Source: a virus | Length of the DNA stretch: 64,000 nucleotides | Reading direction: 5' to 3' (one strand) | IMG/VR virus record: IMGVR_UViG_3300036861_000632 | Coordinates: 1 to 64,000 of that record | In this document: one piece after another, positions 13,501 to 29,899 of the stretch | Layout of the letters: every line of letters starts with the position of its first letter | How positions within the stretch are numbered: the first letter of the stretch is position 1 | Made by a program: the position numbers and the translations under genes | The notes under the pieces: generated by a model | Told to the model about the DNA's origin: nothing | The model's database searches: none | What the model saw: the letters and a program-made list of their open reading frames with translations, nothing else

Positions 13501-13698
13501 ATGTCCTGGCAACTACAAACCAAACACATCGGCTCGGTGCTCACCATCCAAGAATGGAATGAGCGCATGAAAGAGGAACTGCGGGCGGCGGAAACCTGCT
13601 CACCGCATATCGTAGAGCAAATCAAGCAGGTGGACGCTCTAGTGCGCAATGAAGTGCGCCGCACCACCTTCGCCATGCGTATGCCACGCACTGTCTGA
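13501..13698 (+). CDS. Small protein, 3' end reads into an integrase remnant
   Basis: 65 aa from ATG 13501. The first ~50 residues look like a normal helical protein ('VLTIQEWNERMKEELRAAE'). The last ~15 (EVRRTTFAMRMPRTV) are read in a different frame from the tyrosine-recombinase remnant that begins at 13653. The gene was therefore probably altered at its 3' end by the arrival of that fragment. The 54-bp gap before it contains a GTGGCG...CGCCAC stem. Confidence 0.4.
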   Translation: MSWQLQTKHIGSVLTIQEWNERMKEELRAAETCSPHIVEQIKQVDALVRNEVRRTTFAMRMPRTV

Positions 13699-13820
13699 AT
13701 GCTGGCCAAAATCCTCGCGCCATTCAGCAGGCGATGGGGCATAGCCAGCTTGAAACCACAATGGGGTATATGCACGCAGAGGCATTGAACGTAAAAAGCC
13801 CACTGGAATTTCAAGCATGA
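13653..13820 (+). pseudogene. C-terminal remnant of a tyrosine recombinase (integron/Xer-like)
   Basis: A 55-codon frame, without a start codon and preceded by a stop (TGA 13650-13652), encodes the catalytic C-terminus of a tyrosine recombinase. The HxxR box 'HHLRHAYATH' has its Arg at 13671-13673; the 'MGHS' box and the nucleophile in 'TTMGYMHAEAL' follow. The end 'NVKSPLE' resembles integron integrases and Xer-like proteins. About 250 N-terminal residues are missing, so it cannot be active. Its stop overlaps the next gene's ATG as ATGA, the pattern of a once-functional operon member. Confidence 0.8.
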
Positions 13821-13954
13821 AAGAACACCGACTCATCTGTCAGCGTCGCTGTCTCCCAGGTGGTGGCTTCTACAAATGGACGCCCCGTAAGCCGCATCCC
13901 GTCGAATGCCCGAATTGCAAATCCCGAAACTGGAACCGCAAGAAAGCCGCCTGA
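13817..13954 (+). CDS. Small zinc-binding protein
   Basis: 45 aa, ATG overlapping the stop of the recombinase remnant (ATGA at 13817-13820). It has Cys at residues 8 and 12 and a CPNC pair near the end ('PVECPNCKSRNWNRK'), so one zinc site is likely. Basic residues suggest nucleic-acid binding. Only two bases separate its stop from the glycosyltransferase ATG, so the two are probably co-translated. Confidence 0.6.
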   Translation: MKEHRLICQRRCLPGGGFYKWTPRKPHPVECPNCKSRNWNRKKAA

Positions 13955-13956
13955 CT

Positions 13957-16317
13957 ATGTTCAAGAACCTCCTCGCGCTGACCCATTCGCCCACGATTGA
14001 AACCGGCATCGGGCGCGTCACGCAGAACCTCTTTTCGCGCTTCAAACCGCACTTCGAGTCCATCGACATTTTCGCCATCAACTACAACGGGATGCCGCAC
14101 GCGATGCAAAAGGAATACACCCTCTATCCTCCGCCCCGTGGTGACGAGTGGGCGAGCCGGGATGGGCTGGGAGCGTTCTGCGACCGGATCAGGGTGGCCT
14201 TCGAGAATGGGCGCGGCTATTCGCACGTCTGGATGTGCGAGGAACCGCGCAGTCTTTCGCAGTGGAACTTTCCACAGACCATCAATCGCGCGGGCAGCCA
14301 TTTCGGATTCGTGACGGCGGGTTACTTCCCCGTGTGCTCGCAGATGGACGACAAGTGGCTGGACATCATCCGGGCGGTCGATTGCCCGGTGGCGTACACG
14401 AACTACGGTCTGACCGAGATGTTGCGCGGCAAGCGGGAACTGCTGTTCAAGGGACGCTCCAAGCCGGCGATCATCCCGCACGGCGTCAACCCGGAGATTT
14501 ATCACCCGGTCAAGCCGGAAGCGAGAATCGCCATGCGCTCGCGTCTCCAACTCGCCGAAAAGGATTTCGTCCTGCTTAACGTCAACCAGAATCAGCGCCG
14601 CAAAGGGCTGGTGAACTCGTTTCAAATCCTCGCCCTGCTCCGTTCAATGAACGTGCCGGCCGTGCTCATCATGCACATGCCGGATGGCAACGAGATTGAG
14701 GGCACGTCCATCAGCGCGATGGCGGATCAGCTTGGCGTCTTGCCGGCATGGTGGCGTTCGTCGGATGATCTTTTCCTCAACGGCCACGCGCGCATGGCGG
14801 AGACTTCGTTGAACCTCGTTTACAACTGCGCCGATCTCGTGCTGTCCACGACCTACGGTGAAGGCTTCGGCCTGAGTTTGATCGAGGGAGTGGCGGCGGG
14901 CTGCTGTGCCGCCATGCCGGACCACACGGCCTGCGCCGAGATTGCCGACGCCATCAACGCTTCACAGCCGGGCCGTGTCCTCAAGCTGCCGGTGTCTGAC
15001 ATCGCCATCGTCAACATGCGGGACGATTCGCGCGTGCGTTATCCGGTGGATGTGAAGGCGTCTGCCTTTGCCATTGCCGACCTGTACGGCAAAGAGAAGT
15101 GGCGCATCCGCGAACCGCTCTCACCCGCCATCCGCAACTGGCTTGATTGGGACCGCATCGCAAAGCAGTGGCTCAAATTTATGGACATTGAGAAGCCCGC
15201 GGTGCCGGAGTCCTACACCATCGAATCGTCGAGGCGGGTGATGATTCCGCACAGCGAATGCGTGGCGCCAACTCCGAGCTTTCAGAGGCAGACACCGTGG
15301 CCGAGTGGATTGGTCCCGCTGCCTGTCACTAAGGACATGGCTTACTTCAATTCGGGGCTGGTGCGCGGGCCGGATGCTCAACTGTGGCTGGTTTCACGGA
15401 AGGCGGTGCGGGTGAACCATCCGAAGCTGCTAGACCATAGTAATCTGGCGGCGATTGCCTTAAACGAGAACATGGAGCCGCGCCACGGATATTCGCTTGC
15501 ACAGCTACTCGCCGGGGACACGCAAGCGGATAGAGTGGATCGGGCAATCGAAAAAATGCTCGACCTTCCAAACCGCGAAACCGAACAGCACGAAGACCCG
15601 CGCGTCGTTTTTCACGCCGGCATGTTCTATGTCGCCTACGCCTCGTGGTCGCGAGAGACATGCATCCCGAACAGCAAGCAGCGCATGGCGGCGTTCAAGG
15701 ATTGGAACAGTCAGCCGATCGTTGGCCGCGAAATATTCTACGGCAACAACGACTCCGCCAATCCGGGCACGGAAAAGAACTGGCTGCCGTTCTTCCATGA
15801 TGGCGTCCTGCATCTGGTCTATCGGTTCGCGCCGCACATCGTCATCGCGCCCTACGCGCAAAACGGCGTCGCGCTGGTCGAATACCGGACGGCCACGAAT
15901 GACACCTGGAAATGGGGCGAGATTCGCGGCGGCACTCCGCCTGTCCGCGTGGGCGACGAATACATTTCGTTCTTCCATTCCTCAACGCCGTGGCGCGGGC
16001 CGTTCCGCCGCTATTACATGGGCGCGTATGCGTTCGCTGCCAAGCCGCCGTTCAACGTCACGCGCATCAGTCCGAAGCCGATCCTCGCCGGGAGCGATGA
16101 GGACTCGCGGTTGTGGGGCAAGAACAAGCCGGCGGTGATCTTCCCGTCCGGGGCGTTGCTTGAGAAGGAGGAGTGGCTGGTGACGGGCGGCTGCAATGAT
16201 GAGGCGACTTTCTGGATTCGGATTCCGCACAAGGAATTGGAGATGCGGGAGTGCTCCACGAACGATGAAGTCAGCCACACGGCTGGCCGAAAACCAGAAA
16301 GTGAAGGAATGAAATGA
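13957..16317 (+). CDS. Fusion: GT4 glycosyltransferase plus GH130-like propeller domain
   Basis: 786 aa from the ATG at 13957. The N-terminal half is a GT-B glycosyltransferase: 'AIIPHGVNPEIYHP', 'LLNVNQNQRRKG', and the GT4 nucleotide-sugar motif 'STTYGEGFGLSLIEGVAAG' around residues 300-318. From about 450 the sequence follows GH130 mannoside phosphorylase/mannosidase blades: 'EDPRVVFHAGMFYVAY', 'NWLPFFHDGVLHLVYRFAPH', 'YISFFHSST', then 'VIFPSGALLEKEEWLVTGG'. One polypeptide would thus join sugar transfer to a mannoside-acting propeller. It probably acts in the cytoplasm on host glycan or polysaccharide. Catalytic competence of the second domain was not established residue by residue. Confidence 0.8.
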   Translation: MFKNLLALTHSPTIETGIGRVTQNLFSRFKPHFESIDIFAINYNGMPHAMQKEYTLYPPPRGDEWASRDGLGAFCDRIRVAFENGRGYSHVWMCEEPRSLSQWNFPQTINRAGSHFGFVTAGYFPVCSQMDDKWLDIIRAVDCPVAYTNYGLTEMLRGKRELLFKGRSKPAIIPHGVNPEIYHPVKPEARIAMRSRLQLAEKDFVLLNVNQNQRRKGLVNSFQILALLRSMNVPAVLIMHMPDGNEIEGTSISAMADQLGVLPAWWRSSDDLFLNGHARMAETSLNLVYNCADLVLSTTYGEGFGLSLIEGVAAGCCAAMPDHTACAEIADAINASQPGRVLKLPVSDIAIVNMRDDSRVRYPVDVKASAFAIADLYGKEKWRIREPLSPAIRNWLDWDRIAKQWLKFMDIEKPAVPESYTIESSRRVMIPHSECVAPTPSFQRQTPWPSGLVPLPVTKDMAYFNSGLVRGPDAQLWLVSRKAVRVNHPKLLDHSNLAAIALNENMEPRHGYSLAQLLAGDTQADRVDRAIEKMLDLPNRETEQHEDPRVVFHAGMFYVAYASWSRETCIPNSKQRMAAFKDWNSQPIVGREIFYGNNDSANPGTEKNWLPFFHDGVLHLVYRFAPHIVIAPYAQNGVALVEYRTATNDTWKWGEIRGGTPPVRVGDEYISFFHSSTPWRGPFRRYYMGAYAFAAKPPFNVTRISPKPILAGSDEDSRLWGKNKPAVIFPSGALLEKEEWLVTGGCNDEATFWIRIPHKELEMRECSTNDEVSHTAGRKPESEGMK

Positions 16318-16529
16318 GCGCAACCGATAACCAGAAACCGTCCGCCGAAGCCCAACGCGAAGCCGTGTTGTGCTGCACTGATTTGTTAGGCTGCCCGAAT
16401 TGCAAAAGCACAAACATCATAAAACTCTGGCGGGCCGAGATCGTCCTGCCCGGTGACAACTCAGACAACTCAACCAAAGGATACCGATATGGATGCCATG
16501 ACTGCGACTCAATCTTCTACGCCCGTTAA
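16314..16529 (+). CDS. Small zinc-ribbon protein
   Basis: 71 aa, coupled to the glycosyltransferase by ATGA at 16314. 'CPNCKS' near residue 27 and 'CHDCDS' near residue 61 form a two-knuckle zinc ribbon. Such small proteins are frequent between phage genes and often bind nucleic acid, but no specific role can be given. Its 3' end overlaps the next gene by 41 bp. Confidence 0.6.
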   Translation: MSATDNQKPSAEAQREAVLCCTDLLGCPNCKSTNIIKLWRAEIVLPGDNSDNSTKGYRYGCHDCDSIFYAR

Positions 16530-16845
16530 GTGGCGCCCCGAACACGGCGGCGCATACCGCTGCCTGCGTGCCAACGAAGAGCATGGCACGAAGAAGGGTA
16601 AAATCTACATCTACGAAACGACCTTCTACCCTCAAGGCGAAATCTGCCACTACAACTCGCGCTGGCAAACGCGACTGCTCGGCGGATGCAACTCGCTTCG
16701 ACAACCCGGCGCGTTCGAGACGGTGACAATCTGCCCGTTCTGCGGCGCGACCATGTATAAACCGGAAGCCGATGCCAGCGGCTTCTTCCCGCTCGCCCAC
16801 GATGCTGCTGAGTGCGCGAAGAAAACCGGAGACTCGTCAGCCTAA
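16489..16845 (+). CDS. Cysteine-containing small phage protein
   Basis: 118 aa from the ATG at 16489, preceded by AAGGAT at a usable distance; an ATG at 16498 is the alternative. Contains 'VKWRPEHGGAYRCLRANEEH', a beta-rich middle ('GKIYIYETTFYPQGEICHYN') and a 'CPFCGA' knuckle near the C-terminus. Function unknown. The stop is immediately followed by a stem-loop. Confidence 0.6.
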   Translation: MDAMTATQSSTPVKWRPEHGGAYRCLRANEEHGTKKGKIYIYETTFYPQGEICHYNSRWQTRLLGGCNSLRQPGAFETVTICPFCGATMYKPEADASGFFPLAHDAAECAKKTGDSSA

Positions 16846-16857
16846 CGCAAAGTTAGG
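16841..16857 (+). other. Short stem-loop CCTAAC-GCAAA-GTTAGG
   Basis: A perfect 6-bp inverted repeat with a 5-nt loop overlaps the stop codon of the preceding gene. It lacks a U-tract, so it is not an obvious terminator. Its arms resemble integron core sites, but the spacing is far too short for attC. Confidence 0.35.
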
Positions 16858-16885
16858 GCATTGCCACCGGACGGAAGCGAACTCG

Positions 16886-17038
16886 ATGACCCACAACCAC
16901 AACACCACGAAGACTAAATATGCACTACAAAGCGACTTAGAAGCGATTTCCTTCGCGCAATTGATGAATGTTGCGCTAAACGAAAACATCCATGTTGACC
17001 ATCTGCCTGACAACCTGCCGGCCCGAACCGAAGTTTGA
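16886..17038 (+). CDS. Possible small protein
   Basis: 50 codons from an ATG at 16886, polar N-terminus (THNHNTTKTK) followed by a helix ('LQSDLEAISFAQLMNVALNE'). It overlaps the next glycosyltransferase by 47 bp. Composition of the helix is protein-like, but the long overlap and lack of motif make it uncertain. Confidence 0.3.
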   Translation: MTHNHNTTKTKYALQSDLEAISFAQLMNVALNENIHVDHLPDNLPARTEV

Positions 17039-17975
17039 TTACTTCTTCGACTCATTGCATCGGGAACTGTGCGGCGATTACAGGGGCGTCACTATTGTCA
17101 TCGTGGATGCGCTCCTGAATCAGCGCCCTCCGAACCTTGCAATCCAGCGGTCGGTTGCTGGCAGTGCGACACTTCACTGTGCAGACCCGAAACCGACGCT
17201 TCACTGGATAGAGCCGAAGCCGAACTTGTGGCAGGGCGTCCATCGCCTCACGAGCCAAGACTACTGGGCGAAGTGCAACGCGCTCAACACGGCGCTCTGC
17301 TACGCTCCCGATGGTTGGTTCACCGTCATGGACGATCTTGGTGTGCTAATTCCCGGCTGGGGCAAGGCGCTCAAACGCGCGATGGTAGATGACAAGATCA
17401 TCACCCTGGGCGCTTACAAGAAGGTGAAGGAATTGGAGATTGAGGACGGGGCGGTGATTTCATTCAAGCCCCACTTGAACGACAGGGGCGAAGATGTTGG
17501 CCGGGATTCCCGCTGGTCGCGCGGAAGTTTTGAAGGTCCAGTACCTGCCGTGGGCGACATGATGTTCGGCCACGTCACCGCGCCAGTTGAAGCCTTCCTC
17601 AAGATCAATGGCTACCCGGAACTCCTGTGCGATTCGCTTGGATTCGAGGATGTCATCACCGGCATCACGCTCGAAAAGGCGGGCTACAAGTTTGTGTACG
17701 ATCGGACGATGCTCGTGTTTGAGAGCGAGGAACTGCATCATCTGGTGCAAGCGGGGAACGTCAAGATGACGACGGTGAAGCGGATCGACAAAGGTTGTAG
17801 CCCCAAGGACAAATCGAACGAGGTTCTTCGCCGCGCTCGCGCTGGCGACTACTCCATCTGGAACAATTACGATTTGCGGGAGTTGAGGCAGGGCATTCTC
17901 AACGGGGGAGAATTTCCTGTGCCGCTTTCCCCTGTCGTAGATTGGTACGACGGGATGGCCTTGAATCAGATGTGA
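16992..17975 (+). CDS. GT2-like glycosyltransferase
   Basis: 327 aa, GT-A-like. It begins with the strand 'MLTICLTTCRPEPKFDYF', has a 'YAPDGWFTVMDDLGVLIPGW' segment where the DxD-type metal site lies (MDD), and a late acidic motif 'GFEDVITGITLEKAGYKFV', typical of the catalytic-base region in GT2/galactosyltransferase-type enzymes. It would transfer a nucleotide-activated sugar in the cytoplasm. Its stop overlaps the following ATG (TGATG at 17973-17977). The specific donor cannot be read from sequence. Confidence 0.75.
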   Translation: MLTICLTTCRPEPKFDYFFDSLHRELCGDYRGVTIVIVDALLNQRPPNLAIQRSVAGSATLHCADPKPTLHWIEPKPNLWQGVHRLTSQDYWAKCNALNTALCYAPDGWFTVMDDLGVLIPGWGKALKRAMVDDKIITLGAYKKVKELEIEDGAVISFKPHLNDRGEDVGRDSRWSRGSFEGPVPAVGDMMFGHVTAPVEAFLKINGYPELLCDSLGFEDVITGITLEKAGYKFVYDRTMLVFESEELHHLVQAGNVKMTTVKRIDKGCSPKDKSNEVLRRARAGDYSIWNNYDLRELRQGILNGGEFPVPLSPVVDWYDGMALNQM

Positions 17976-18700
17976 TGCCCGTCGTAACCGTCAGCCTGCT
18001 TGGTCGTCTGGGGAACAATTTATTTTCCTACGCCTACGCCCGCGCCTACGCCGAACGTCACGGCTTTGAGTTTCAGTGTGACCCGTGGATCGGGCAGAAG
18101 ATTTTCCAGATCAACGATACTCCCGTCCACGAGAAGAATCGGGCTATGGCGCGAAGAACCGAATTGGATGTCCGCGATGGCGAAAGCAACATCGAGTTCC
18201 GCACTTACGCGCAGAGTCAGGCGGCGATGATTTACACGCGGACGCAAGCGCGAGCATGGTTCAGGTTTCGCGAGGAACATCAGTATTTGATGCCACCTCC
18301 AGATGATCTGCTGGCACACCATCGCGTCGGCGACATGCAAGGCTATGGGTACCCACAAATCCGTCGCGCATCATACCTGACCGCCTGCGAGAAGTTCGGT
18401 TTCGACCCCAAGCTTCTTCGGTTTGTAACCGAGGAACATCCAACCGATGTGCCGGGCCTGACGAAGATGGGCCTTGGGTTCCTGCCCGACTTCTACCGGC
18501 TTGCAAACGCCCGAATTCTGTTTCGCGCAAATTCATCGTTCAGCTTTTGGGCATCCATCATCGGGAAGGCTGAGAGAGTGTTCAGCCCGGTCATCCGGGG
18601 ACTCGAAGGCGGACGTGAACATGATGTGAATTTCATTGAAGGATTATGGCCGCGCTTGGCCGATCTCGATGGAGTGACCGACTTACACCTACCAACATGA
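17975..18700 (+). CDS. Fucosyltransferase-like (GT11) enzyme
   Basis: 241 aa from the ATG at 17975. The N-terminus 'LLGRLGNNLFSYAYARAYAE' matches the characteristic GxGNqlFqyAfarala opening of alpha-1,2-fucosyltransferases. 'HHRVGDMQGYGYPQ' could correspond to the HxRrgDy donor motif, with Val for the second Arg and Met for Tyr. The C-terminus 'FSFWASIIG' resembles the SsFSwWaa motif. It should use GDP-fucose or a similar donor. It is coupled to both neighbours. Confidence 0.75.
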   Translation: MPVVTVSLLGRLGNNLFSYAYARAYAERHGFEFQCDPWIGQKIFQINDTPVHEKNRAMARRTELDVRDGESNIEFRTYAQSQAAMIYTRTQARAWFRFREEHQYLMPPPDDLLAHHRVGDMQGYGYPQIRRASYLTACEKFGFDPKLLRFVTEEHPTDVPGLTKMGLGFLPDFYRLANARILFRANSSFSFWASIIGKAERVFSPVIRGLEGGREHDVNFIEGLWPRLADLDGVTDLHLPT

Positions 18701-19281
18701 AACCTTTCGAGGAGCGAATGCGCTACGAGTATAACCTGACGCCCGACAGCGTGGTCATCGACGCGGGCGGGTATGAGGGGAACTTCGCCAAGATGATTGC
18801 TGACAAATACGGATGCAAGGTGTTCGTGTTTGAGCCGGTGTCCCGGTTCGCTGAAATCATCGAGAAGAAGCTGTCCCACTACCAGAATATCGACGTATTC
18901 CGATTTGGCATCGGTGCCGTAACAGGCCCGAAGAAATTTCATGTCCAGAACGATTCGACGGGCGAATTCGCCGGGAGCACTGACACCGAGATCGTCCAGC
19001 TTTTCAGCATAGATGAAATTGATGATGCACTTGGGTTCCCGCTGTTCGAGGATGACGTTTCACTTTTCAAGTTAAACGTGGAAGGGAACGAGTTTTGCAT
19101 TTTGGAGCGCGCCCTAGAAACAGGACTGGTCACTCACTGGCGCAACATCCAAGTCCAATTTCATCCAATCGTCCCTGACTACGAAGCCCGCTATCAACGC
19201 ATCCGCGAAGGCTTGCTCAAGACGCACGAGTTTACGTTTGACGAACCTTGGATCTGGCAGAATTTTGAATTACGCAAATGA
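18697..19281 (+). CDS. FkbM-family methyltransferase
   Basis: 194 aa from the ATG at 18697 (ATGA overlap). The SAM-binding fold is visible: 'VVIDAGGYEGNFAKMIADKYG' (motif I, with GGYEG in place of GANVG), 'VFVFEPVSRFAEII' (acidic end of strand 2), and 'LFKLNVEGNEFCIL', the 'lKiDvEGaE' signature of FkbM proteins with Asn for Asp. FkbM enzymes O-methylate sugars or small molecules, here probably a glycan made by the neighbouring transferases. Confidence 0.85.
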   Translation: MKPFEERMRYEYNLTPDSVVIDAGGYEGNFAKMIADKYGCKVFVFEPVSRFAEIIEKKLSHYQNIDVFRFGIGAVTGPKKFHVQNDSTGEFAGSTDTEIVQLFSIDEIDDALGFPLFEDDVSLFKLNVEGNEFCILERALETGLVTHWRNIQVQFHPIVPDYEARYQRIREGLLKTHEFTFDEPWIWQNFELRK

Positions 19282-19451
19282 AGACGTTGCTCACCAAGCT
19301 CAAAGCAAAACTGCGCGACTGGCTTTTTGCGGATTACAAATGGGTGACGCGCGCACAAGTGCAGCGTGAAATCTGTGCGGCACGGTGGGAATACCGAAAC
19401 TATCCACTCGTGCAGCGCGTTCTCTCGGAACTTCAAGAAACGATAAAATGA
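19278..19451 (+). CDS. Small basic protein
   Basis: 57 aa, ATG at 19278 overlapping the FkbM stop, and its own stop overlapping the next ATG (ATGA twice). The N-terminus is strongly basic (KTLLTKLKAKLRDWLF), followed by helical 'VTRAQVQREICAARWEY'. The coupling on both sides is the best evidence that it is real. Function unknown. Confidence 0.6.
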   Translation: MKTLLTKLKAKLRDWLFADYKWVTRAQVQREICAARWEYRNYPLVQRVLSELQETIK

Positions 19452-19627
19452 ATACCTCACACGAACCACATTCCGGCATGTTCCTGATCGTGCCGTCCAG
19501 TCTGCGGGCCTTCACCGGCATGGATTGCTACTGGGTTTTGCCGCTGACTCTTTCCGGCAATCCGGCGTTCAGCCACATCAATTACCTGACCGCTGAAGAA
19601 GTCGGGCAGGAGTTCGGAGGAAACTGA
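19448..19627 (+). CDS. Small protein of the glycan island
   Basis: 59 aa, ATGA-coupled to the previous gene and ending one base before the GT25 gene. Contains 'FLIVPSSLRAFTGMDCYWVL' and 'HINYLTAEEVGQEFGGN'. The 3' end AGTTCGGAGGAAACTG supplies a good Shine-Dalgarno (GGAGGA) for the following ATG. No recognised family. Confidence 0.55.
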   Translation: MNTSHEPHSGMFLIVPSSLRAFTGMDCYWVLPLTLSGNPAFSHINYLTAEEVGQEFGGN

Positions 19628-19628
19628 C

Positions 19629-20312
19629 ATGCACATCGGAAAATACTTCGACCAAATCATTTGCATCAACCGCGTTTCCCGTACTGACAGAAGGCGGCAC
19701 GCCGCGGCTCAGGCGATCCGTTGTGAACTGTTCGACCATGACAACTTTCAGTTCTTCACAGCCCATGATGGCCACATGCTCGACGGCACGTTCAATGGCA
19801 ACTTTGGATGCACCGCCTCTCACCGCGGCGTCCTTGAACTCATCGCGCATCACGGCTGGGAACGGACACTTGTGCTCGAAGACGACTTTGACGTGGTTGA
19901 ACCTGGCCGTTACGCCGACCACGCGAAGAACCGCCTGCCGTTCAACGAGCAATGGGCGAAGATGATCGGCGAAGTGCCGGACGATTGGGAGATGCTCTAT
20001 CTCGGCGGGCATTACGCGGAGGCACCGATTGCGCGGGTGTCCGAGCACGTCATCCGCATTGGCCGGATGCTGACCACGAGCAGCTACGGCATCACCGCGA
20101 AGTTCGCCCGCAAGATTGCGCCTCATATTTCCGGCATCGGCCCCATCGACGTGCTCTACGGCGGGTTCCACCGCGAGAACCGCTGCTACTGCTTCACGCC
20201 GCGCTTGATGGTACAGTATGAAAATCTAAGCGACCTCCAGCATCGCAAAATGGATAACTCTCAATGTATGCTGGACCCGAACCACGAGGCGATGGTGCCG
20301 TTCAGCGACTAA
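19629..20312 (+). CDS. GT25-family glycosyltransferase (LPS type)
   Basis: 227 aa, ATG at 19629 with a strong GGAGGA upstream. The pattern is that of GT25 enzymes acting on lipooligosaccharide: 'IICINRVSRTDRR' at the N-terminus, 'FGCTASHRGVLELI' (the cxxSHxxvl motif), 'TLVLEDDFDVV' (metal-binding EDD), 'LYLGGHY' and 'TSSYGITAKFARKI'. It probably transfers galactose or another hexose to a host surface glycan. It ends the plus-strand island and overlaps the convergent minus-strand gene by 11 bp, with no terminator visible. Confidence 0.88.
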   Translation: MHIGKYFDQIICINRVSRTDRRRHAAAQAIRCELFDHDNFQFFTAHDGHMLDGTFNGNFGCTASHRGVLELIAHHGWERTLVLEDDFDVVEPGRYADHAKNRLPFNEQWAKMIGEVPDDWEMLYLGGHYAEAPIARVSEHVIRIGRMLTTSSYGITAKFARKIAPHISGIGPIDVLYGGFHRENRCYCFTPRLMVQYENLSDLQHRKMDNSQCMLDPNHEAMVPFSD

Positions 20313-20946
20313 AGCCTGCATCGTTTGTATTCATGCGCCCTGTCGCGCCATCCAGTTGCTCCTTCTTTGCGAAGATTTGCAACTTGGGCGTCGGCACCGT
20401 GTAGAGCGACCGCGCTTGCAGGCGAAAGTAACCATCAGGCAGGTTGGTCACATAGACGGGGATCGTGATGATGCCGTTCGTCATGCTGTCCTCCCACTCG
20501 CAGCGGCCAGAACGAGAACCCAAATCATCGGTTGGCGGATAATAAGTGGCGTGCATGTTTGACCGGCCTACTGCGGTTCCGATTATACGGTTGGTCATCT
20601 CCGTTCCCGGCGCGTAGAACAAATCGCCCCGCCATATTTCCGTGTAAGGCTTCCGCAAGTCGGTCGTGAATCCGATGGTGTAAAAGGTGTTTGTCACAGC
20701 ATACCACGAGAGCGTCAGCTTGTTCGTAGCGACCACAGTGACGACCAGTTCGCCCGGCACCATCCGCTTGCCGGCGCGCGAACCAGCCTTGATGGACTCG
20801 ATGACCTTCGGCAGTTGCGGCGTCGCAACGCAGCCGACCAGAATGCCGACGAAGGCGGCGACCAGCCAGTTGCCCACCGCCATTTTGGCGGGAATTTGGA
20901 TTTCAGGTTTGCGGTCGGGCCAAGTAGTTGATGGTGGGCGTTTCAT
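20302..20946 (-). CDS. Exported lipoprotein-like protein, paralogue 1 beside subtilisin
   Basis: 214 aa from the ATG at 20946, which overlaps the protease stop. An internal ATG at 20883 would give a cleaner lipoprotein signal (VAAFVGILVGC). The mature part aligns by eye with the product at 23291-23785: both have GKR...PG, then 'FYTIGFTTDL..PYTEIWRGDL' and 'GRSNMHATYYPPTDDLGS'. The two paralogues flank the subtilisin gene, so they probably act with it at the cell surface. The fold resembles fibronectin/PEP-type domains of Verrucomicrobiota exported proteins, an inference. Confidence 0.7.
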   Translation of the reverse strand: MKRPPSTTWPDRKPEIQIPAKMAVGNWLVAAFVGILVGCVATPQLPKVIESIKAGSRAGKRMVPGELVVTVVATNKLTLSWYAVTNTFYTIGFTTDLRKPYTEIWRGDLFYAPGTEMTNRIIGTAVGRSNMHATYYPPTDDLGSRSGRCEWEDSMTNGIITIPVYVTNLPDGYFRLQARSLYTVPTPKLQIFAKKEQLDGATGRMNTNDAGFSR

Positions 20947-23294
20947 GGTGTGTTGGTGATGATGACTGGAAAAGGGGTGGACATCTCCACGTTCGTCCCC
21001 CGGAACACTTTTGCGAAAATCGTCTGAGACCCGCTGGCATTCGTGCCGGGGTTGAACCGGATGGCATAGGGCGGATTCGAGGCGATACCCAGCAGTGTCG
21101 CATTGCCCAGCCAGAATTCGACGCGCGGCACGGGCGGCAGGGCACTCAGGAATACCAGCGATGCGTCACTCGTGCGCTCTTGGTCGTCGAACACCACGAC
21201 CTCAAAGGCGCTGGTGCCGGGCGTTTCCAGCACGATATTCCTACGGCCTTCCAACATGTCGCTGACGCGCCCTTGGTGAAGCCACGGCTGCACGGCGTAC
21301 GACGTGGGCCGGTTGCTGGGATTCGAGGCCGTCAGATCAAAGGTGACGGTGTGTGGAGCCGGCCCGCGATTCGTGCTCATGGAGAACGCGAGTCGAGGCA
21401 CGTAGGTCGATGGATTGATGCGGATGACCGCCGTGGTCGAGACCCCAAAGTTGCCGGAGCGGTCGAACACGAACGCGCGGCCCGTCGTGGCGTTCGTCAC
21501 CGCCAGCACCGAAACGAAGTAGGGATTCGTGCGGCCGTCCGGCACCTGGTTGAATGTCCACCACGAGTTCGGCCCCACGTCCATCTGGAAAACATACGAG
21601 CACGTCTGCGGGTCGAGCCGGTTGGTATCCACCGAGAGCGTATGTTCAAACCAGCCGGCGGCATTCGTCTGAAAAGTCCAGTGGGTGATGAACTGCGAGA
21701 GGTTGGTCCGGGCTTTCTCATCCCGATACACGAACGCCGTGCGCGCCACCGACGAAATGCCGGCGTGACTGTCGAGCGCGTGGAAGGTGAACCAAGCTTG
21801 GTCATCGTAAGCCCACGGCGCGGCGGTCAGCGTGAAATCGTTGCTGGCGGTGCCCGCGGCGAAGCGATGGCTGCCAAACAGGGCGGAGACGCCCTCTCCA
21901 AAACCTGAAAGATCGAAGCCGCTTTGGAGCCGGTAGGTGATCGCGTCGCCATCCGGGTCGGTGGCGTTCGCGCGCCAGCGCACGGATTGCCCTGCGTTCA
22001 ACACCGCATTCGCACCGTTGACGGTGAGCGTGGGCGGATGGTTCGCGAACGGATGGAGCACTTCGGGATTGTTGACGAGCTTGTTGAGATTCAGCCGGCC
22101 ACCGCTGAAGCACGGCAGGTTGCGCGCATCAAGGCTGGCCTGCGAGAGCAACAACTGCTTCACCTGAAGTGGAGCGAGTGCCGGGTTGAGCGCGAATAGC
22201 AACGCGGCGGCGCCAGTGACGTGTGGCGCAGCCATCGAGGTTCCACTCAGGAACTTGTAGCCGGACGGATCGCACAATGAGCCTGAGCCGGTGCACACGG
22301 TGGAGTAAATCGAAACGCCCGGCGCGGCAAGGTCGGTGCCAAACCAACCGTAATTGCTGAACGTCGCCCGCGCGTCCTGATCGTCGGTCGCCATGACCGA
22401 AATGATCTGGTCCACCGGGATGCTCGCCGGCCAGAATTGGTAAATGTCCAGATCGCCACCGTTGTTGCCCGCCGCGCAGACGATCAACAGGCCGGCGTCC
22501 CCGGCGGCTTGCATCGCGTCGGCCAGCGCCTGATCTGGTCCACCCCCGCCCCACGAACAGTTGATGGCGCGGATGTTCACGCCGGCTTGTTTCAGATCAA
22601 CGGCCTTTTCGATCATCAACATCCCGTCGCTGATCTGCCCGCTGCCCGTTTCGTTGAGGAACTTGAGGTCGATGATCCTGAGTCCACTCCAAGCGAGGCC
22701 GGCCACGCCGACGCCGTTGTTGCCGACCGCGCCGATGATCCCGGAGCAGTGCGAGCCGTGCCCATGCTGGTCGCCGGTCGTGGTTCGGATGAGACCGAAC
22801 TGGGCTTGGTAGCCGTGCTCGCCATTTGTGCCCGTCCACGCAACGGGCGCGAGGTCAGGATGAGTAAAGTCCACGCCGGTATCGCATACGGCGATGATGA
22901 CGTTCGTGGCGTGCGTGAGGCGGTCCCATGCGAGCGGCGCTTCGATCTTCACCGGCCCCCACTGCTGGTTGAACAGCGGATCGTTTGGCACCGCCTGAGT
23001 CGTCACGATGCGGTCCTCTTGAACCGCGTCGAAGAGCGGCGAGTTTAGATAAGCGGCGAGAGCGCGCTTGGCGGCGGCATCATTCGATGGCAGCCGGACG
23101 ACATGCCAGCGGACGTACTTGAACTGGTGAACCTTTTGCGCGCCGTGCTGGCCGTGGAATTTATCCGCGTCGATTTCCGACCCCTTCTTGACCCGCACTA
23201 GGATCGTCGCCCCAGCGGGATTTACGAAGCGTTGATACGGTGCCGCGCCCAGTGACAGCGTGACCGCCAGAAGAATGAGCGCGACCAGATTCAC
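20943..23294 (-). CDS. Secreted subtilisin-like serine protease (S8)
   Basis: 783 aa. Signal peptide at 1-18 (NLVALILLAVTLSLGAA), then a propeptide-like region. The S8 domain has all catalytic elements: Asp138 in 'VCDTGVDFTHPDL', His179 in 'HGHGSHCSG', oxyanion Asn277 in 'AAGNNGG', and Ser353 in 'LSGTSMAAPHVTGAAA'. From ~410 the sequence is beta-sandwich/PKD-like ('HPPTLTVNG...TDPDGD'), with Asn/Thr-rich segments to the end. It should act outside the host cytoplasm. It is coupled by ATGA to a lipoprotein on each side. A phage-borne secreted subtilase is unusual; possible roles are virion-access proteolysis, host surface shaving or late lysis. Confidence 0.92.
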   Translation of the reverse strand: MNLVALILLAVTLSLGAAPYQRFVNPAGATILVRVKKGSEIDADKFHGQHGAQKVHQFKYVRWHVVRLPSNDAAAKRALAAYLNSPLFDAVQEDRIVTTQAVPNDPLFNQQWGPVKIEAPLAWDRLTHATNVIIAVCDTGVDFTHPDLAPVAWTGTNGEHGYQAQFGLIRTTTGDQHGHGSHCSGIIGAVGNNGVGVAGLAWSGLRIIDLKFLNETGSGQISDGMLMIEKAVDLKQAGVNIRAINCSWGGGGPDQALADAMQAAGDAGLLIVCAAGNNGGDLDIYQFWPASIPVDQIISVMATDDQDARATFSNYGWFGTDLAAPGVSIYSTVCTGSGSLCDPSGYKFLSGTSMAAPHVTGAAALLFALNPALAPLQVKQLLLSQASLDARNLPCFSGGRLNLNKLVNNPEVLHPFANHPPTLTVNGANAVLNAGQSVRWRANATDPDGDAITYRLQSGFDLSGFGEGVSALFGSHRFAAGTASNDFTLTAAPWAYDDQAWFTFHALDSHAGISSVARTAFVYRDEKARTNLSQFITHWTFQTNAAGWFEHTLSVDTNRLDPQTCSYVFQMDVGPNSWWTFNQVPDGRTNPYFVSVLAVTNATTGRAFVFDRSGNFGVSTTAVIRINPSTYVPRLAFSMSTNRGPAPHTVTFDLTASNPSNRPTSYAVQPWLHQGRVSDMLEGRRNIVLETPGTSAFEVVVFDDQERTSDASLVFLSALPPVPRVEFWLGNATLLGIASNPPYAIRFNPGTNASGSQTIFAKVFRGTNVEMSTPFPVIITNTP

Positions 23295-23785
23295 CGTCTG
23301 ATCTCCACCGTTGGCTTTGCTCCATTGCTCCCGACGCGCCAGAATCCCATCACTCCGCTATCCGTCACTCTCACACGGACGGTCCCGTTCGTGATGCCCG
23401 GCCACGACGCGCCAATGGCCCACGCCGATCCGGCATCACTCGTCGGCGGGTAAAGCGCCAGCGTAACGTTCGTGCGCCCCGTGGCCATGCCCAGCGACGG
23501 CGGCGGGCTGCCCGGTGGATTCGCCAGACTCCCGCGCCAGACTTCGGTGTAGGGCGCGAGCAAGTCTGGCGTGAAGGCCAGGGAGTAAAAGTCGTTGCTC
23601 GACGCCGGCCATGAGATTGTAAATACGTCTGGTGCGGCTGCGGTGATTTGCACGCCCGGCGCAACGCGCTTCCCGACGCGGGCGCTCGGCGTTGGCTCCG
23701 GTGAGTAGCGCATACGGGGTAGCTGATTCTGGATCGTGCAACCAGCAACAGCGCACAGCGCGAGTGAGAGCAGGATGTTTTTCAT
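23291..23785 (-). CDS. Lipoprotein, paralogue 2 beside subtilisin
   Basis: 164 aa from the ATG at 23785. Residues 1-15 are a lipoprotein signal ending in the lipobox AVAGC (Cys16). The mature region shares with the product at 20302-20946 the order 'GKRVAPG', 'FYSLAFTPDL..PYTEVWRGSL', 'GRTNVTLALYPPTSDAGS'. It would sit on the outer face of the inner membrane or in the outer membrane. It precedes and overlaps the protease gene by 4 bp. A chaperone, inhibitor or anchor for the protease is a reasonable idea; the sequence does not say which. Confidence 0.75.
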   Translation of the reverse strand: MKNILLSLALCAVAGCTIQNQLPRMRYSPEPTPSARVGKRVAPGVQITAAAPDVFTISWPASSNDFYSLAFTPDLLAPYTEVWRGSLANPPGSPPPSLGMATGRTNVTLALYPPTSDAGSAWAIGASWPGITNGTVRVRVTDSGVMGFWRVGSNGAKPTVEIRR

Positions 23786-24006
23786 AAGTTGGGACGCCAC
23801 ATTTTCGGCACGTCCATCGGAAGGTTGCAGTCGGTCTCAGTGCCGTCAGTTGCCCATCCAGCGGGGAATACTCCACACCTGGAGCCGAGCATACACACGG
23901 GACGGTCTGACCACATGATTGCAGCTTCATCGCCGTCGTCATACAGTCCGATGATGCTTGAGCCATCGCGCGGTGCCTTTTCCATCGGTAGCCATGCTGG
24001 TTTCAT
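23782..24006 (-). CDS. Small conserved phage protein (APxDGs type)
   Basis: 74 aa. The start 'WLPMEKAPRDGSSIIGLYDD' matches a common short phage family with a WxPxxxAPxDG opening, followed by 'AAIMWSDRPVC' and ending 'KMWRPNL'. Role unknown. The ATGA overlap at 23785-23782 couples it to the lipoprotein. Confidence 0.65.
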   Translation of the reverse strand: MKPAWLPMEKAPRDGSSIIGLYDDGDEAAIMWSDRPVCMLGSRCGVFPAGWATDGTETDCNLPMDVPKMWRPNL

Positions 24007-24009
24007 ACA

Positions 24010-24465
24010 TCAACCCCAACGCATGTGGTAAATCGACGCAGCCTCGCGTGGACTCAATGTGATGATCTGCTCCATCTGAGGTTCGTAGAAAAAGACGACG
24101 GGCACAATCTCTGCGCCCTCCGGCTTTGTGTCACAGAACGCATTCGCTCCATGATCCAGCCCGTCATCACGAAAATACCAGAACTCGGCCACGGCTGCCG
24201 CACTGTCACCGTCGTAAGATAACTCGCCTGCATGTTCACGCGCTACGAAACAAGCAAACTCGCGCTCCATATCATCACAATCAGATTTGCCACGCTTGTA
24301 AACGATCTTGTTACGCTTCTTGTATTCAACCCATCTGTCAGACAGCGTGCCGGACACGAACGCAGCCGGAATCGGAAGGTAGCTTTCGTCTGCCGGAAGA
24401 ATCTTTTCTTCTGGACAAGTGATGCCAGCGGCACGGCAGGCGGAAAGAATTTGGTCAAAGGTCAT
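24010..24465 (-). CDS. Phage protein with DCD...HGAN motifs, possible papain-like fold
   Basis: 151 aa. 'GKSDCDDMEREFACFVA' contains a Cys in a D-C-D setting. Further on come 'AEFWYFRDDG', 'DHGANAF' and 'VFFYEPQ'. This order resembles a small phage family in which a Cys and a His-x-x-Asn could form a transglutaminase- or papain-like site. Sited next to membrane proteins and lipoproteins, an enzyme acting on host wall or surface is possible. The activity is not shown by sequence alone. Confidence 0.5.
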   Translation of the reverse strand: MTFDQILSACRAAGITCPEEKILPADESYLPIPAAFVSGTLSDRWVEYKKRNKIVYKRGKSDCDDMEREFACFVAREHAGELSYDGDSAAAVAEFWYFRDDGLDHGANAFCDTKPEGAEIVPVVFFYEPQMEQIITLSPREAASIYHMRWG

Positions 24466-25072: not shown

Positions 25073-25384
25073 TTATTTGACAACTTTTCCAAGGATTGAG
25101 TCGATGGCCTGAAGCGCCTGCACGGCATTCGTCGTGCTGGATTCCTGACCCAGTGAGCCGATGCCTACGCCCTGCGTCTTGTCCGTCTGTGTGGTCTTGA
25201 ATTTTGCCAGTTCGTTGTGGGCGTCGAACACGGTGAACACATGCGTCTTGGTGGTGACGCGCTCCGTGAATTTTCCAGTGGCATCAACCTTCTCGTTGAC
25301 TTGCATGGTCGAAAGACTGCCACACCCACAGAGCAGCGCGACAGTGACCGGGGCAATGGTGAAGTAACGGCGGATGGTGTTCAT
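25073..25384 (-). CDS. Small lipoprotein
   Basis: 103 aa from the ATG at 25384 (ATGA overlap with the gene before). Signal peptide with lipobox LLCGC ('ALLCGCGSLSTMQVNEKVD'). The mature part is Thr/Gln/Lys-rich with alternating beta character. In phage lysis regions a small lipoprotein is often the outer spanin, but no matching inner spanin was identified, so this remains a possibility. Confidence 0.6.
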   Translation of the reverse strand: MNTIRRYFTIAPVTVALLCGCGSLSTMQVNEKVDATGKFTERVTTKTHVFTVFDAHNELAKFKTTQTDKTQGVGIGSLGQESSTTNAVQALQAIDSILGKVVK

Positions 25385-25614
25385 GCGGATTTCTTCCTTC
25401 GGGTTCTGGTTTTGGGACGGTTGGTGAAAAAGAAGTTGCCGGTGCGGATGCTCTGGATGAAGCAATCCAGACTTCGCATAAATGCTCCGGGGCGTTCGTG
25501 CCCCTCGCTGTGGAAATAAATATTCCCGGCGCGCACTACGCGGCAAAAGATGTCACCGCGCCCATCCTTGAGGATTACGAATTCGGTGGGGACTTTCTGG
25601 CCGCGTCGAGGCAT
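25381..25614 (-). CDS. Small protein, DUF1508/YegP-like pattern
   Basis: 77 aa. 'PTEFVILKDGRGDIFCRVV' followed by 'GNIYFHSEGHERPGAFMRSL' has the strand-strand-helix order of YegP/DUF1508 units (f.. k..nGeil. ... seg y..k..a...I). The C-terminal end is strongly basic. Function in phages is unknown. Coupled to the lipoprotein by ATGA. Confidence 0.5.
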   Translation of the reverse strand: MPRRGQKVPTEFVILKDGRGDIFCRVVRAGNIYFHSEGHERPGAFMRSLDCFIQSIRTGNFFFTNRPKTRTRRKKSA

Positions 25615-25685
25615 GGGCCACTATCAACACTTTGCACCACCAGAGTCAATGACGGATTTCTGTGGTGGTGCAATCAGTGCGCGAT

Positions 25686-25864
25686 TCAAGCGGCAGGCTT
25701 GTGGCTGTAGTGGCTCCAGATGAGTCCGGCGATGAGCACGATGGCCCCCTCACATCCTCGCCGTTGAGGACGTTGGCGGCAGTGGTTGCCCCGTGGGTAA
25801 TCAAAGCCGTGCCGATGACTTTGAGGGCGGTGCGGACGAGCGAGGTGAGTTGGTCTTGGTTCAT
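25686..25864 (-). pseudogene. Holin-like small membrane protein, split by a -1 frameshift
   Basis: The frame from ATG 25864 reads 'NQDQLTSLVRTALKVIGTAL' and continues to VLNGEDVRG. There a run of five G (25749-25745 on the minus strand) shifts the natural continuation 'AIVLIAGLIWSHYSHKPAA' into the -1 frame, ending at 25686. Together this gives a 59-aa protein typical of small phage holin-like proteins (LVRTaLk...GaliaGLiwSHysHKp). Without the shift the frame runs on as non-membrane sequence to 25646. Causes could be a programmed slip, a real mutation or a homopolymer error. Confidence 0.7.
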
Positions 25865-26262
25865 GGTGTTTTGGGAGGTTCGATGTTTGTTGCTGGAGAT
25901 GAAGCATCATCCGCCTTGAAAAGTTTCTGGTCAAGCACCCGCTTGAGAACCTTTGCGTGCAATGCCCATGTCCCGCACGCAAGCAGGAAGCCCTGCATGT
26001 AAACCTGAAGATACATGGCCACTTCCGGGCAGCAGAGCTTCGGATCGAAATCCGCGATGCACGGCCAGCCGAGGAAGAACGGGCCGAGGATCGTGCCCGC
26101 CGGAACCGTCACGAGCGGGATGAACTTGTTCGGGAAGAAACGTTGAGGCACAATCTTCAGACCGTAGCCAACTGCCAGCAATGTCACGATGAGCAGCTTC
26201 GGGCCGGTGAGCGTGATGATGGAAACGATGAGTTGGTCGATTACTTCCAACGGTGAATTCAT
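25861..26262 (-). CDS. Membrane protein, candidate holin
   Basis: 133 aa with hydrophobic helices at about residues 10-35 ('IVSIITLTGPKLLIVTLLAV'), 45-68 and 83-102, and a charged, Pro/Ala-rich C-terminal tail. Size, topology and the neighbourhood of two further small membrane proteins suggest a holin that permeabilises the inner membrane at lysis. Coupled by ATGA to the frameshifted gene. Confidence 0.5.
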   Translation of the reverse strand: MNSPLEVIDQLIVSIITLTGPKLLIVTLLAVGYGLKIVPQRFFPNKFIPLVTVPAGTILGPFFLGWPCIADFDPKLCCPEVAMYLQVYMQGFLLACGTWALHAKVLKRVLDQKLFKADDASSPATNIEPPKTP

Positions 26263-26265
26263 AGG

Positions 26266-26493
26266 TCAGTGTTTCGTCAGGTGTGTGCCAAGGTCATAAA
26301 GCAGCTTCAAGAAATCCAGCACGGCGATGAGTCCGATCCACTTGACCAGCCCGATGATCGCCTTGGCCCCAAGCCACCAGTCGCGCATCTCCTTGTGCTC
26401 GACAACCAGATCGTGCAGGACCTCATCCTGCAAGCAGCGGCGTTCGTTGAGCAACTTTTCCAGATCATCCCGGTCGCGTTTCGGTGGCGGCAT
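26266..26493 (-). CDS. Small membrane protein with cytoplasmic coiled coil
   Basis: 75 aa. The first ~40 residues are charged and helical ('RDDLEKLLNERRCLQDEVLH'). Residues ~43-66 form a single transmembrane helix ('AKAIIGLVKWIGLIAVLDFL'). It overlaps the response-regulator gene by 29 bp, so the two are translated together. It could be an antiholin or inner spanin-like protein. Confidence 0.5.
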   Translation of the reverse strand: MPPPKRDRDDLEKLLNERRCLQDEVLHDLVVEHKEMRDWWLGAKAIIGLVKWIGLIAVLDFLKLLYDLGTHLTKH

Positions 26494-26911
26494 AAGCGGA
26501 AATGGCGGCGGTGAGCGATCTCAATTTGGTGAGCTTTTCTTCCAGCGGAACATTTGGCCGGGTTACGCGCGCGAGCCGCCGCACGAAATCCGGCCCCTTG
26601 TTGAGCAGCCCGAGCGAGCCGGAAACCATGTCCTTCGCGCCCCCGATGCCCGTGATGACCACGATGGGGGTTCCGCGCGCCGTCGCCACAATCTCGAACA
26701 TTTTCCCGAGCGTTTCCGCGCTGGTCGAATCCTCCAGGGTCAGATCGAGCAGGATGAGGTCGAAATGTTTCTGGCTCAGGACGGCCAGCGCGTCCTTGAG
26801 CCGGGCGCAGTCCGTGAACTGCACATGGTCAGTGCCGTATGCCTGCTCAAACTCGTGATGGATGAGCAGCACGTCCTGCGGATTGTCTTCGATGAGCAGC
26901 AGAATCAACAT
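26465..26911 (-). CDS. Stand-alone response-regulator receiver (CheY-like)
   Basis: 148 aa. All receiver-domain landmarks are present: acidic pair Glu8-Asp9 ('LLLIEDN'), phospho-acceptor Asp56 ('DLILLDLTL'), Thr87 ('PIVVITG') and Lys105 ('LLNKGP', CheY Lys109 equivalent with the usual Pro one residue further on). No DNA-binding or enzymatic output domain follows; the last ~30 residues are a basic helix. No histidine kinase is in the window, so it would have to use or disturb host phosphorelay. The first ten codons are duplicated at 3485-3516. Confidence 0.9.
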   Translation of the reverse strand: MLILLLIEDNPQDVLLIHHEFEQAYGTDHVQFTDCARLKDALAVLSQKHFDLILLDLTLEDSTSAETLGKMFEIVATARGTPIVVITGIGGAKDMVSGSLGLLNKGPDFVRRLARVTRPNVPLEEKLTKLRSLTAAISAYAATETRPG

Positions 26912-26977: not shown

Positions 26978-29899
26978 TCATGGAACAAGCGTTACCGCGG
27001 TAATCAGTCCGTTCAACACGGTGATGGTGGCGACATCGCCAGATCCGCCACCGCCAAAGCTATAGGTGCCATCGGCTGTGGGGTCTGGCGCAAGGTAATC
27101 CGTGCCGGCCGCCGCTGCCGAAATTGCCCCGGCTCCGTCCGCCTTCACGATACCATTGACGGCACCAACAACCGGGTCCAGTTCGGTATCGACGTAATCC
27201 GTCCCCGGCGTGGCGGCGGAAATTGCCCCGGCTCCGTCGGCTTTCACAAGGCCGGTGATTGCACCGACAATCGGATCGGTTTCCGCAGTGACAACGCCTG
27301 TCAGCCCCGAACCATCACCGTCGGGTGCCAGATAATCGGTTCCGGCAGCAGCCGCCGAAATTGCGCCCGCGCCGTCTGCTTTCACGAGGCCAGTGACCGC
27401 GCCAACGATGGGGTCGGTTTCGGTGGCCACATAGTCGGTTCCGGCAACCGCCGCCGAGATGTTCCCCGCGCCGTCCGCCATGACAATCCCCGTGATGGCA
27501 CCAACCACCGGATCGGTTTCCGACCCTGCGGTTGCCGACAAGGCTCCGGCGGAAAACGTAAGCCCGGCGCCAACCGTGATTTCCTCGATGGCCCCCGTGC
27601 TCGCCGTGGTCCGGCCAAGCAACCGCGCCGTGCTCATGGTCAGGCCGGATGAACCCACCGCGCCGGAACCGGCCGCCGCCAGATTCGTGCGCGCATTCGC
27701 CGCCGTGCTCGCGCCTGTGCCGCCGTCCGCGACTGCGAGATCGGTGATGCCCGCGACGGTTCCGCCCGTGATGGCGACCGCACTGGCGGCTTGCGTGGCC
27801 ATCGTGCCGAGGCCGAGATTGGTTCGCGCGCCCGTCGCATCGCTCGCCCCGGTCCCGCCATCCGCAAGGGCGAGGTCGGTGATGCCAGTGATGGTTCCGC
27901 CGGTAATCGCCACGGCACTGGCCGCCTGCGTCGCCAGTGTATCCAATCCGAGCGTGGTTCGCGCCGCCGCCGCGTTGGCGTCATCCACCAGCGTCAGAAT
28001 GAACGCCGAGACAGTGACGCCGCCAATCTTGTTCACCGTGGCGGCGGAGGCCGTGCCCGACAGATCGCCGCCGAGAGTGGGGTCGTCGTCGCCCGGTTCG
28101 CCTTTGTATTCAAACCACAAGCCGGTGAAATCGCCGGCCGACGGACTGGCAATCACCGTCGTCGAATTCTTGAACGCGATGAAATTCTTCTCGACGCTCG
28201 TGCTGAACCCGGTGCCGATGTCGTCATCCGCCCACGCGATGTAGAGGTAGGCATTCGCGCCATTGGTGCCGTTGGTTCCGGCTTGGGCGAGCTTCCACCA
28301 GTAGGTCGTATTCGAGACGGCCTGATTGGAATGCTCCACCTTGGCCATGTAGAGCGAACCGGAGTCCGTGACCATGTGGCCGGGCAGGTAGGTGTCCGAC
28401 GTGTTGTGCGCGCCCTTGACCTGGGTGGCCAGCAGCTTGAACAGGTTCTCACAAGTGATCTGTTTCAGGGCCGGAGTCGTCTCCGGGTTCTGAAGCAGCA
28501 TCAGCATGTCGCTCGCGGCAATGGACGTGGTTTCGGCCAGTGCCTCCACGGTTGTCTGCAAGTCCTCCGCCTCGGATTCCTCGATTGCGTCAATGCGCGC
28601 CTCGTGATCCTCCAGCATCGTGATCTGCGCCGCCGAAGCGAATCCCGCCGTGGAATTGGTCGCGTTGGAATGCGTGTGGCCGATGACCGAAACAACACTC
28701 GTGTCGATCTTGACGCCGTTGCTGTCGGAGGTCAGGCCGTTGCCCAGCCGCACATTGCCGCTGAATTCCGAGCCGGTGAGAATCAGGTCCAGCGTGTCCG
28801 TGTCGGCAACGGTCGGGCTGGCGAGCGCGGCAAGCTTGGTGAAATCCGCAATCGACATGAAACCGGCAGCCGACCCGGATGCTTCATCGTGCGTGTGGTC
28901 GATGGCCGGCACGACCGCCGGATCAACCTTGAGGCCGTCGGCATCGGAGGTTACTCCCCCGCCTGTTTTGAGCCGGACATCCGCGGTGATCTGGCCGGCG
29001 GTGATCGTCAGATCGACCGTCGCCGTGTCCGCCACGGTGACATCCTCCAGGGTATTGAGCTTCGTCTTGTCGGCGGCCGACATGAAGCCGGCAACCGATT
29101 CCGTCGCGTCGTCATGCGTGTGGTCAATCGCTGGAACCACCGCCGTATCAATTTTCAGCCCATCGGAATCCGAAGTGACGCCACCGCCCGACTTGACCCG
29201 CGCGCTCGCGGTCAATTGCTGATTCGCCTGCACGGCCAGGGTGACGGTCGTTGACGACAACGCTGAAAGCGCCGGGTGATCGTTCGTGTGATGATGGTCG
29301 CCGGCCGCCGCGGTGTCCCGCGTCGTGCCGATCTTGGCCGCCAATCCGTCCACCGTGCTTTCCAGTGCCGGGCCGGAATTGATCTGCGCGCAGTTGTAAG
29401 TCGCATAGACTTCCTGCGCGCCGCTGGCGGTGATGAGATTCGAGCCGGTAAGGATGTGGACGATGCCCAGCCGCCCATCGAGGTAATAGTCCGTGCCGGC
29501 AACCCCTGTTGCAATCGTCGTGCCGCCGCCCGCCGGCCGGCGAATAAGAACAACCGAGGAAACTATTTCCCGCTCAAGATCGAGACTGCCTCCGGCTGCC
29601 ACCGGATGATCGAACACCATCGTCAACCCGGTGCCTGCCGCTTGAACCTCAACGTCGTCGGGAATGATGACTTCGCCGGTCAACGCCTGTTCATCGAGCG
29701 CCAGCGCGAGCGTTTGGTTCGTGGCGGGCACAGTCACGGGTCCGTGAGTCTCGGCCGTAATCAACGCCTCGACTTCGGCTGTCGTTGGCCGTGTGGCAAT
29801 ATCCGCGTCATGCTCGCCTTTGCGAATGCAGTCCTCATCCGCCGTCGCCGGGCCGGACGAGGTGAACTTCGGAGCGGTTGTGGCTTTCAGGTCGGCCAT
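26978..29899 (-). CDS. Long tail fibre with HxH repeats
   Basis: 973 aa. Four metal-type sites of the HxH class recur at about residues 203 (GDHHHTNDH), 258 (IDHTHDD), 333 (IDHTHDE) and 406 (IGHTHSN). Each leads into 'AGFMS.AD..KL', as in phage fibres that bind iron through His-x-His, the T4 gp37 principle. From about 640 come 'ARTTLGLDTLATQAASAVAI' shaft repeats. Residues ~790-960 contain five copies of an ETDPIVGA.TGLVKADGAGAI unit. It would form a long trimeric fibre. It lies directly after the portal gene. Confidence 0.88.
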   Translation of the reverse strand: MADLKATTAPKFTSSGPATADEDCIRKGEHDADIATRPTTAEVEALITAETHGPVTVPATNQTLALALDEQALTGEVIIPDDVEVQAAGTGLTMVFDHPVAAGGSLDLEREIVSSVVLIRRPAGGGTTIATGVAGTDYYLDGRLGIVHILTGSNLITASGAQEVYATYNCAQINSGPALESTVDGLAAKIGTTRDTAAAGDHHHTNDHPALSALSSTTVTLAVQANQQLTASARVKSGGGVTSDSDGLKIDTAVVPAIDHTHDDATESVAGFMSAADKTKLNTLEDVTVADTATVDLTITAGQITADVRLKTGGGVTSDADGLKVDPAVVPAIDHTHDEASGSAAGFMSIADFTKLAALASPTVADTDTLDLILTGSEFSGNVRLGNGLTSDSNGVKIDTSVVSVIGHTHSNATNSTAGFASAAQITMLEDHEARIDAIEESEAEDLQTTVEALAETTSIAASDMLMLLQNPETTPALKQITCENLFKLLATQVKGAHNTSDTYLPGHMVTDSGSLYMAKVEHSNQAVSNTTYWWKLAQAGTNGTNGANAYLYIAWADDDIGTGFSTSVEKNFIAFKNSTTVIASPSAGDFTGLWFEYKGEPGDDDPTLGGDLSGTASAATVNKIGGVTVSAFILTLVDDANAAAARTTLGLDTLATQAASAVAITGGTITGITDLALADGGTGASDATGARTNLGLGTMATQAASAVAITGGTVAGITDLAVADGGTGASTAANARTNLAAAGSGAVGSSGLTMSTARLLGRTTASTGAIEEITVGAGLTFSAGALSATAGSETDPVVGAITGIVMADGAGNISAAVAGTDYVATETDPIVGAVTGLVKADGAGAISAAAAGTDYLAPDGDGSGLTGVVTAETDPIVGAITGLVKADGAGAISAATPGTDYVDTELDPVVGAVNGIVKADGAGAISAAAAGTDYLAPDPTADGTYSFGGGGSGDVATITVLNGLITAVTLVP

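Follow-up and report, generated by a model that had tools for sequence, protein, structure and literature searches.

What an unclassified phage might do with a subtilisin-family protease encoded exactly between two related lipoproteins is the question raised by a minus-strand locus of IMG/VR record IMGVR_UViG_3300036861_000632. The record comprises 93,586 bases (~93.6 kb) and holds the 64,000-nt window analyzed here. A sequence-only reading had placed three ORFs at 20302-23785, and all three are present there: lipoprotein B (164 aa, 23291..23785), subtilase P (783 aa, 20943..23294, GTG start) and lipoprotein A (214 aa, 20302..20946).

Genomic setting of the trio

The record encodes a tape-measure protein, a tail fiber, a DnaB helicase and holin-like proteins, and we therefore assign it to an unclassified tailed phage. 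Among the remaining large proteins of its structural region, most have no PHROG or Pfam family match, which marks the phage lineage as poorly sampled. Two of the structural-region proteins, of 499 and 609 aa, had no confirmed relative in IMG/VR in a scan requiring near-exact 8-residue matches. On L003 (3702-7604), a 1300-aa protein appears to fuse a methyltransferase-like N-terminus to a helicase, with known-phage matches only in the C-terminal helicase part.

The trio constitutes the last genes of a leftward minus-strand block (33937 to 20302) that also encodes a methyltransferase, large structural-region proteins, a tail fiber, a response-regulator-like protein, two holin-like proteins and a small lipoprotein. 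The tail fiber-like gene (26978..29899; phrog_11393, 3.8e-8) lies upstream of the trio in the same gene run. Between it and the holin-like genes is a response-regulator receiver-like protein (26465-26911; phrog_731, 3.9e-8; PF00072, 1.1e-6, just under the cut-off). An apparent lysis region (25073-26493) contains the two holin-like genes, the small lipoprotein and a 75-aa protein whose C-terminal stretch is hydrophobic; no recognizable endolysin was found in it. The larger holin-like protein (133 aa, 25861..26262) matches the holin family phrog_1129 (3.7e-5) and, under the cut-off, Phage_holin_5_2 (1.2e-3). The smaller (72 aa, 25646..25864) matches Phage_holin_10, the Pam3 gp28 family, at E=3.2e-5 and 24.3 of 27 bits, under the curated cut-off. 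The small lipoprotein (25073..25384, ATG start at 25384, lipobox LCGC) is a third one, unrelated to A and B, and has no family match in PHROG, Pfam or NCBIfam. A 151-aa protein (24010-24465) carries a KSDCDD...DHGANAF...FFYEPQ pattern, which we take to resemble a cysteine-protease-like fold, and has no family or PDB match. The 74-aa ORF immediately upstream of B (23782..24006), for which PHROG and Pfam searches found no family, overlaps B by 4 nt. All of these genes are on the minus strand.

We read the block ending in the trio as a late operon from gene position, and late expression of the trio would follow from its place there. A scan of the trio's surroundings found no promoter or terminator above chance expectation that would set it apart. 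On the minus strand the gene order is B-P-A, and both junctions overlap by 4 nt. ATGA coupling had been described on both sides of the protease gene; this holds for P/A, whereas B/P is GTGA, with P starting at GTG. The 4-nt overlaps behind the proposed co-translation are real, but they are not specific to the trio: in the minus-strand block around it, 7 of 16 tabulated junctions are of this type, and the 74-aa ORF overlaps B in the same way. Because such overlaps are general across the operon, coupling is no special mark of the trio and is weak evidence for a B-P-A complex.

Facing the trio on the plus strand is a glycosyltransferase cluster with a methyltransferase (13906-20312; phrog_2170, 2835, 8156), possibly concerned with virion or host surface glycosylation. 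Just ahead of the cluster lies a plus-strand remnant of a tyrosine integrase C-terminus (13602-13781; PF00589, 46 bits, positions 112-169, one internal stop), possibly a scar left by a temperate ancestor or by an insertion.

The lipoproteins and the protease

The pairwise homology proposed for A and B was borne out. BLASTP aligns them with 37% over 141 aa (E=6e-24), and with signal peptides removed the mature proteins are identical at 49 of 118 positions (41%), with an alignment score of 217 against a shuffled mean of 30.6 (sd 5.3; Z=35). This mature-only shuffle test rules out chance or signal-peptide bias as the source of the common motifs, which are as had been described: R.GKR..PG, FY....FT.DL..PYTE(I/V)WRG and GR(S/T)N...YPPT.D.GS. 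By alignment, A and B are true paralogs, and they are the sole two copies in the 93.6-kb record. Nucleotide identity at codon positions 1, 2 and 3 is 0.53, 0.66 and 0.41; the lower identity at third than at second positions indicates an old duplication with conserved proteins.

Each paralog has a lipobox, LVGC at residues 36-39 of A and VAGC at residues 13-16 of B, and in both the post-lipid linker QLP...R.GKR..PG is kept together with the same domain. Relative to B, A is extended at its N-terminus and has a tail at its C-terminus; B is predicted to consist of a single FN3-like all-beta domain. Neither protein exceeded the cut-off of any Pfam, PHROG or NCBIfam family. The A/B fold is likely FN3-like: the best PDB match to the A/B profile was to FN3 monobodies, at the edge of noise (E=0.03), and an AlphaFold model of A, run with B, is all-beta, although its low confidence (mean pLDDT 39) makes it too poor for a fold search. 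Lipoproteins are present, and Pfam and PHROG searches gave no spanin (Rz/Rz1) family match. Spanins pair a small outer-membrane lipoprotein with an inner-membrane coiled-coil partner, and the FN3-like domain and paralog pairing of A and B differ from this.

P matches Peptidase_S8 (PF00082) at 2.4e-46, with 158.8 bits against a gathering score of 21.8. The catalytic triad D138-H179-S353 noted earlier is intact and is accompanied by the oxyanion residue N277; all four residues are invariant in a 12-sequence alignment. The prodomain region (~31-95) is followed by the catalytic domain (~110-410) and an Ig/PKD-like C-terminal region (~415-783). For the putative prodomain the match was Fervidolysin_NPro-like, under the cut-off (0.12), and the C-terminal part gave weak Ig-like matches, also under the cut-off (Big_7, 8e-4; Big_9, 0.04). 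No tail-attachment domain was found by Pfam or PHROG, and the AlphaFold model of P is of low confidence, too poor for fold searches. The export signals in the sequence-only reading are supported: in addition to the lipoboxes of A and B, P begins with a hydrophobic run (residues 3-17) that has no preceding basic residue and is signal-peptide-like by composition only. P has no lipobox.

Relatives and comparable systems

The nearest solved structure to P is deseasin MCP-01 (phmmer, 2e-58), and P-like catalytic domains are widespread in bacteria, Verrucomicrobiota among them. The nearest relative found is a 966-aa Acidobacterial protein (L004), which carries PKD and Big_7 domains; it also has a prodomain-like region that aligns with that of P. 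Its gene neighbors resemble NrdR and HflX, a setting that reads as chromosomal. A tree joins P and L004 (SH-aLRT 97), both on long branches; as the search was short and P branches long, we used its coarse placement alone. Kinship of P with the known phage subtilisins of Bacillus phages and Moorella phage MTATph1 is ruled out by this short-search tree, in which they form a separate clade (SH-aLRT 95-97). On these comparisons P is a bacterial-type extracellular subtilase. It shares its catalytic domain with deseasin MCP-01 and the bacterial extracellular S8 subtilases with PKD/Ig tails, and with L004 also the prodomain region and C-terminal Ig/PKD-type domains. P differs from the cellular deseasin-type enzymes in being phage-encoded and flanked by paralogous lipoproteins, and in a C-terminal region that hardly matches theirs. 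The subtilisins of Bacillus phages SP-15 and Goe3 and of MTATph1 are likewise phage-encoded S8 proteases but, unlike P, are encoded by genes of ~330-375 aa in other settings without annotated lipoprotein neighbors; for that of SP-15 the annotation gives similarity to an intracellular serine protease, in contrast to the extracellular type of P.

The view that the trio lies outside known phage modules held up: literature searches found no published phage with such a trio, and searches of IMG/VR, GTDB and INPHARED confirmed no relative of either lipoprotein. The IMG/VR scan, which requires near-exact 8-residue matches and misses distant kin, also confirmed no relative of P, and an A/B pattern search of GTDB gave no match. 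The idea of a Verrucomicrobiota host fared less well. The A/B profile matched 4 of 388 Verrucomicrobiota genomes at E<1e-3 (~0.4 false matches expected) and 0 of 247 Acidobacteriota genomes. One of the four matches crosses stop codons (L091), one covers the N-terminal part only (L093) and two are FN3-like (L090 and L092); the latter are weak profile matches between FN3-like domains and the A/B core. No full-length A/B-like lipoprotein was found in the phylum. Given the number of false matches expected, we treat the connection as a lead only. The B-P-A arrangement was not found in the other records searched; with insensitive scans and a rare lineage, "unique" has to be read as "not found here". 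Proteases of this kind are already known, and it is the B-P-A arrangement in a phage that is new.

The closest architectural parallel we consider is dentilisin of Treponema denticola, PrcB-PrcA-PrtP, in which a subtilisin and two accessory lipoproteins are encoded in a single operon (PMC8167434). The acyl groups of PrcB and PrcA are proposed to anchor PrtP to the outer membrane and their contacts to stabilize it, and PrtP accumulation requires PrcB (PMC8167434). The trio likewise has two lipoprotein genes adjoining a subtilisin-family protease gene. However, PrtP is itself acylated while P has no lipobox, the order is prcB-prcA-prtP rather than B-P-A, and PrcA (70 kDa) and PrcB (23 kDa) contrast with the small paralogs A and B. 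P scored 123.3 bits against the PrtP model NF033595, which requires 300. As to homology with PrcA and PrcB, neither A nor B reached the cut-off of any NCBIfam model. Given the low PrtP score and the lack of a lipobox in P, the parallel is one of "works like", not "is a".

Function of the trio

We tentatively favor a late-made, lipoprotein-tethered extracellular protease, in which A and B would hold P at the envelope to cut host surface proteins. After export and lipidation, A and B would sit in the outer membrane of the host; the prodomain of P would be removed, and the FN3-like domains of A and B would then bind soluble P. Held there, P would cut host surface proteins. The likeliest use, as the trio ends a putative late operon beside holin-like genes, may be to weaken the outer envelope for virion release, to strip receptors against re-adsorption by progeny or rivals, or both. 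The tether is suggested by lipoboxes on A and B with none on P, by the full catalytic apparatus of an extracellular-type subtilase with a prodomain region and Ig-like tail, by the distinctness of P from intracellular-type phage subtilisins, by the place of the trio at the end of a block with a tail fiber and two holin-like genes, and by the dentilisin precedent (PMC8167434). A linker and domain kept in both A and B would be expected if both dock on one partner. Against the tether, no relatives carry the same trio, so the association lacks conservation; 4-nt coupling is common in the operon; the P N-terminus is without the usual basic residue; and the AlphaFold models of A and P are of low confidence.

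The strongest rival, though on balance an unlikely one, is that P is moron cargo, an acquired bacterial extracellular subtilase secreted to serve the host cell (in nutrition, in biofilms or as a benefit of lysogeny), with A and B as neighbors having their own role. The placement of its catalytic domain among bacterial extracellular subtilases, nearest to an Acidobacterial gene in a chromosomal-looking setting, fits such an origin, as do the position of the trio at the distal operon end facing the glycosyltransferase cluster and the integrase remnant with its hint of temperate ancestry. However, no promoter or terminator of its own is evident around the trio, and independent cargo does not predict a protease exactly between duplicated lipoproteins. 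That duplication around P is also left unexplained if A and B serve to mask receptors or exclude superinfecting phages while P acts as a separate tool, which we consider quite improbable. Receptor blocking by phage-encoded outer-membrane lipoproteins is established (e.g., T5 Llp), and A and B are both small and single-domain, but exclusion lipoproteins are normally made early or by prophages, whereas the A and B genes are in a structural/lysis block.

Slightly more improbable again is a dedicated chaperone or inhibitor role for A and B, whether in folding P or in holding it inactive until it is outside the cell. A protease flanked by two paralogs, and the need of PrtP for PrcB in dentilisin (PMC8167434), would agree with this; P, however, comes with a prodomain region of its own, which aligns with the one in a free-standing bacterial relative, so no such need is expected. 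We consider it very improbable that P belongs to the virion as a tail protease and acts on entry: its gene is downstream of the tail fiber gene, but its N-terminus is signal-peptide-like, its neighbors are exported lipoproteins and the Pfam and PHROG searches gave no tail-attachment domain.

Returning to the tethered protease, the earlier proposal that A, B and P may form one surface complex, with shaving of host proteins, virion release or exclusion of rivals as its role, is made reasonable by the late-operon position next to the holin-like genes and by the likeness in architecture to dentilisin. We regard as possible, if somewhat doubtful, that the trio is a phage-encoded, lipoprotein-anchored surface protease complex of dentilisin-like layout, independently evolved, that remodels the infected-cell surface for release or exclusion. 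Known envelope-breaking tools of phages include holins, endolysins and spanins. If the tether reading is true, an extracellular protease expressed late and tethered to the membrane would bring in proteolysis as an additional step for hosts whose envelopes are rich in protein or, alternatively, would be a new means of receptor removal, an idea directly testable with three genes.
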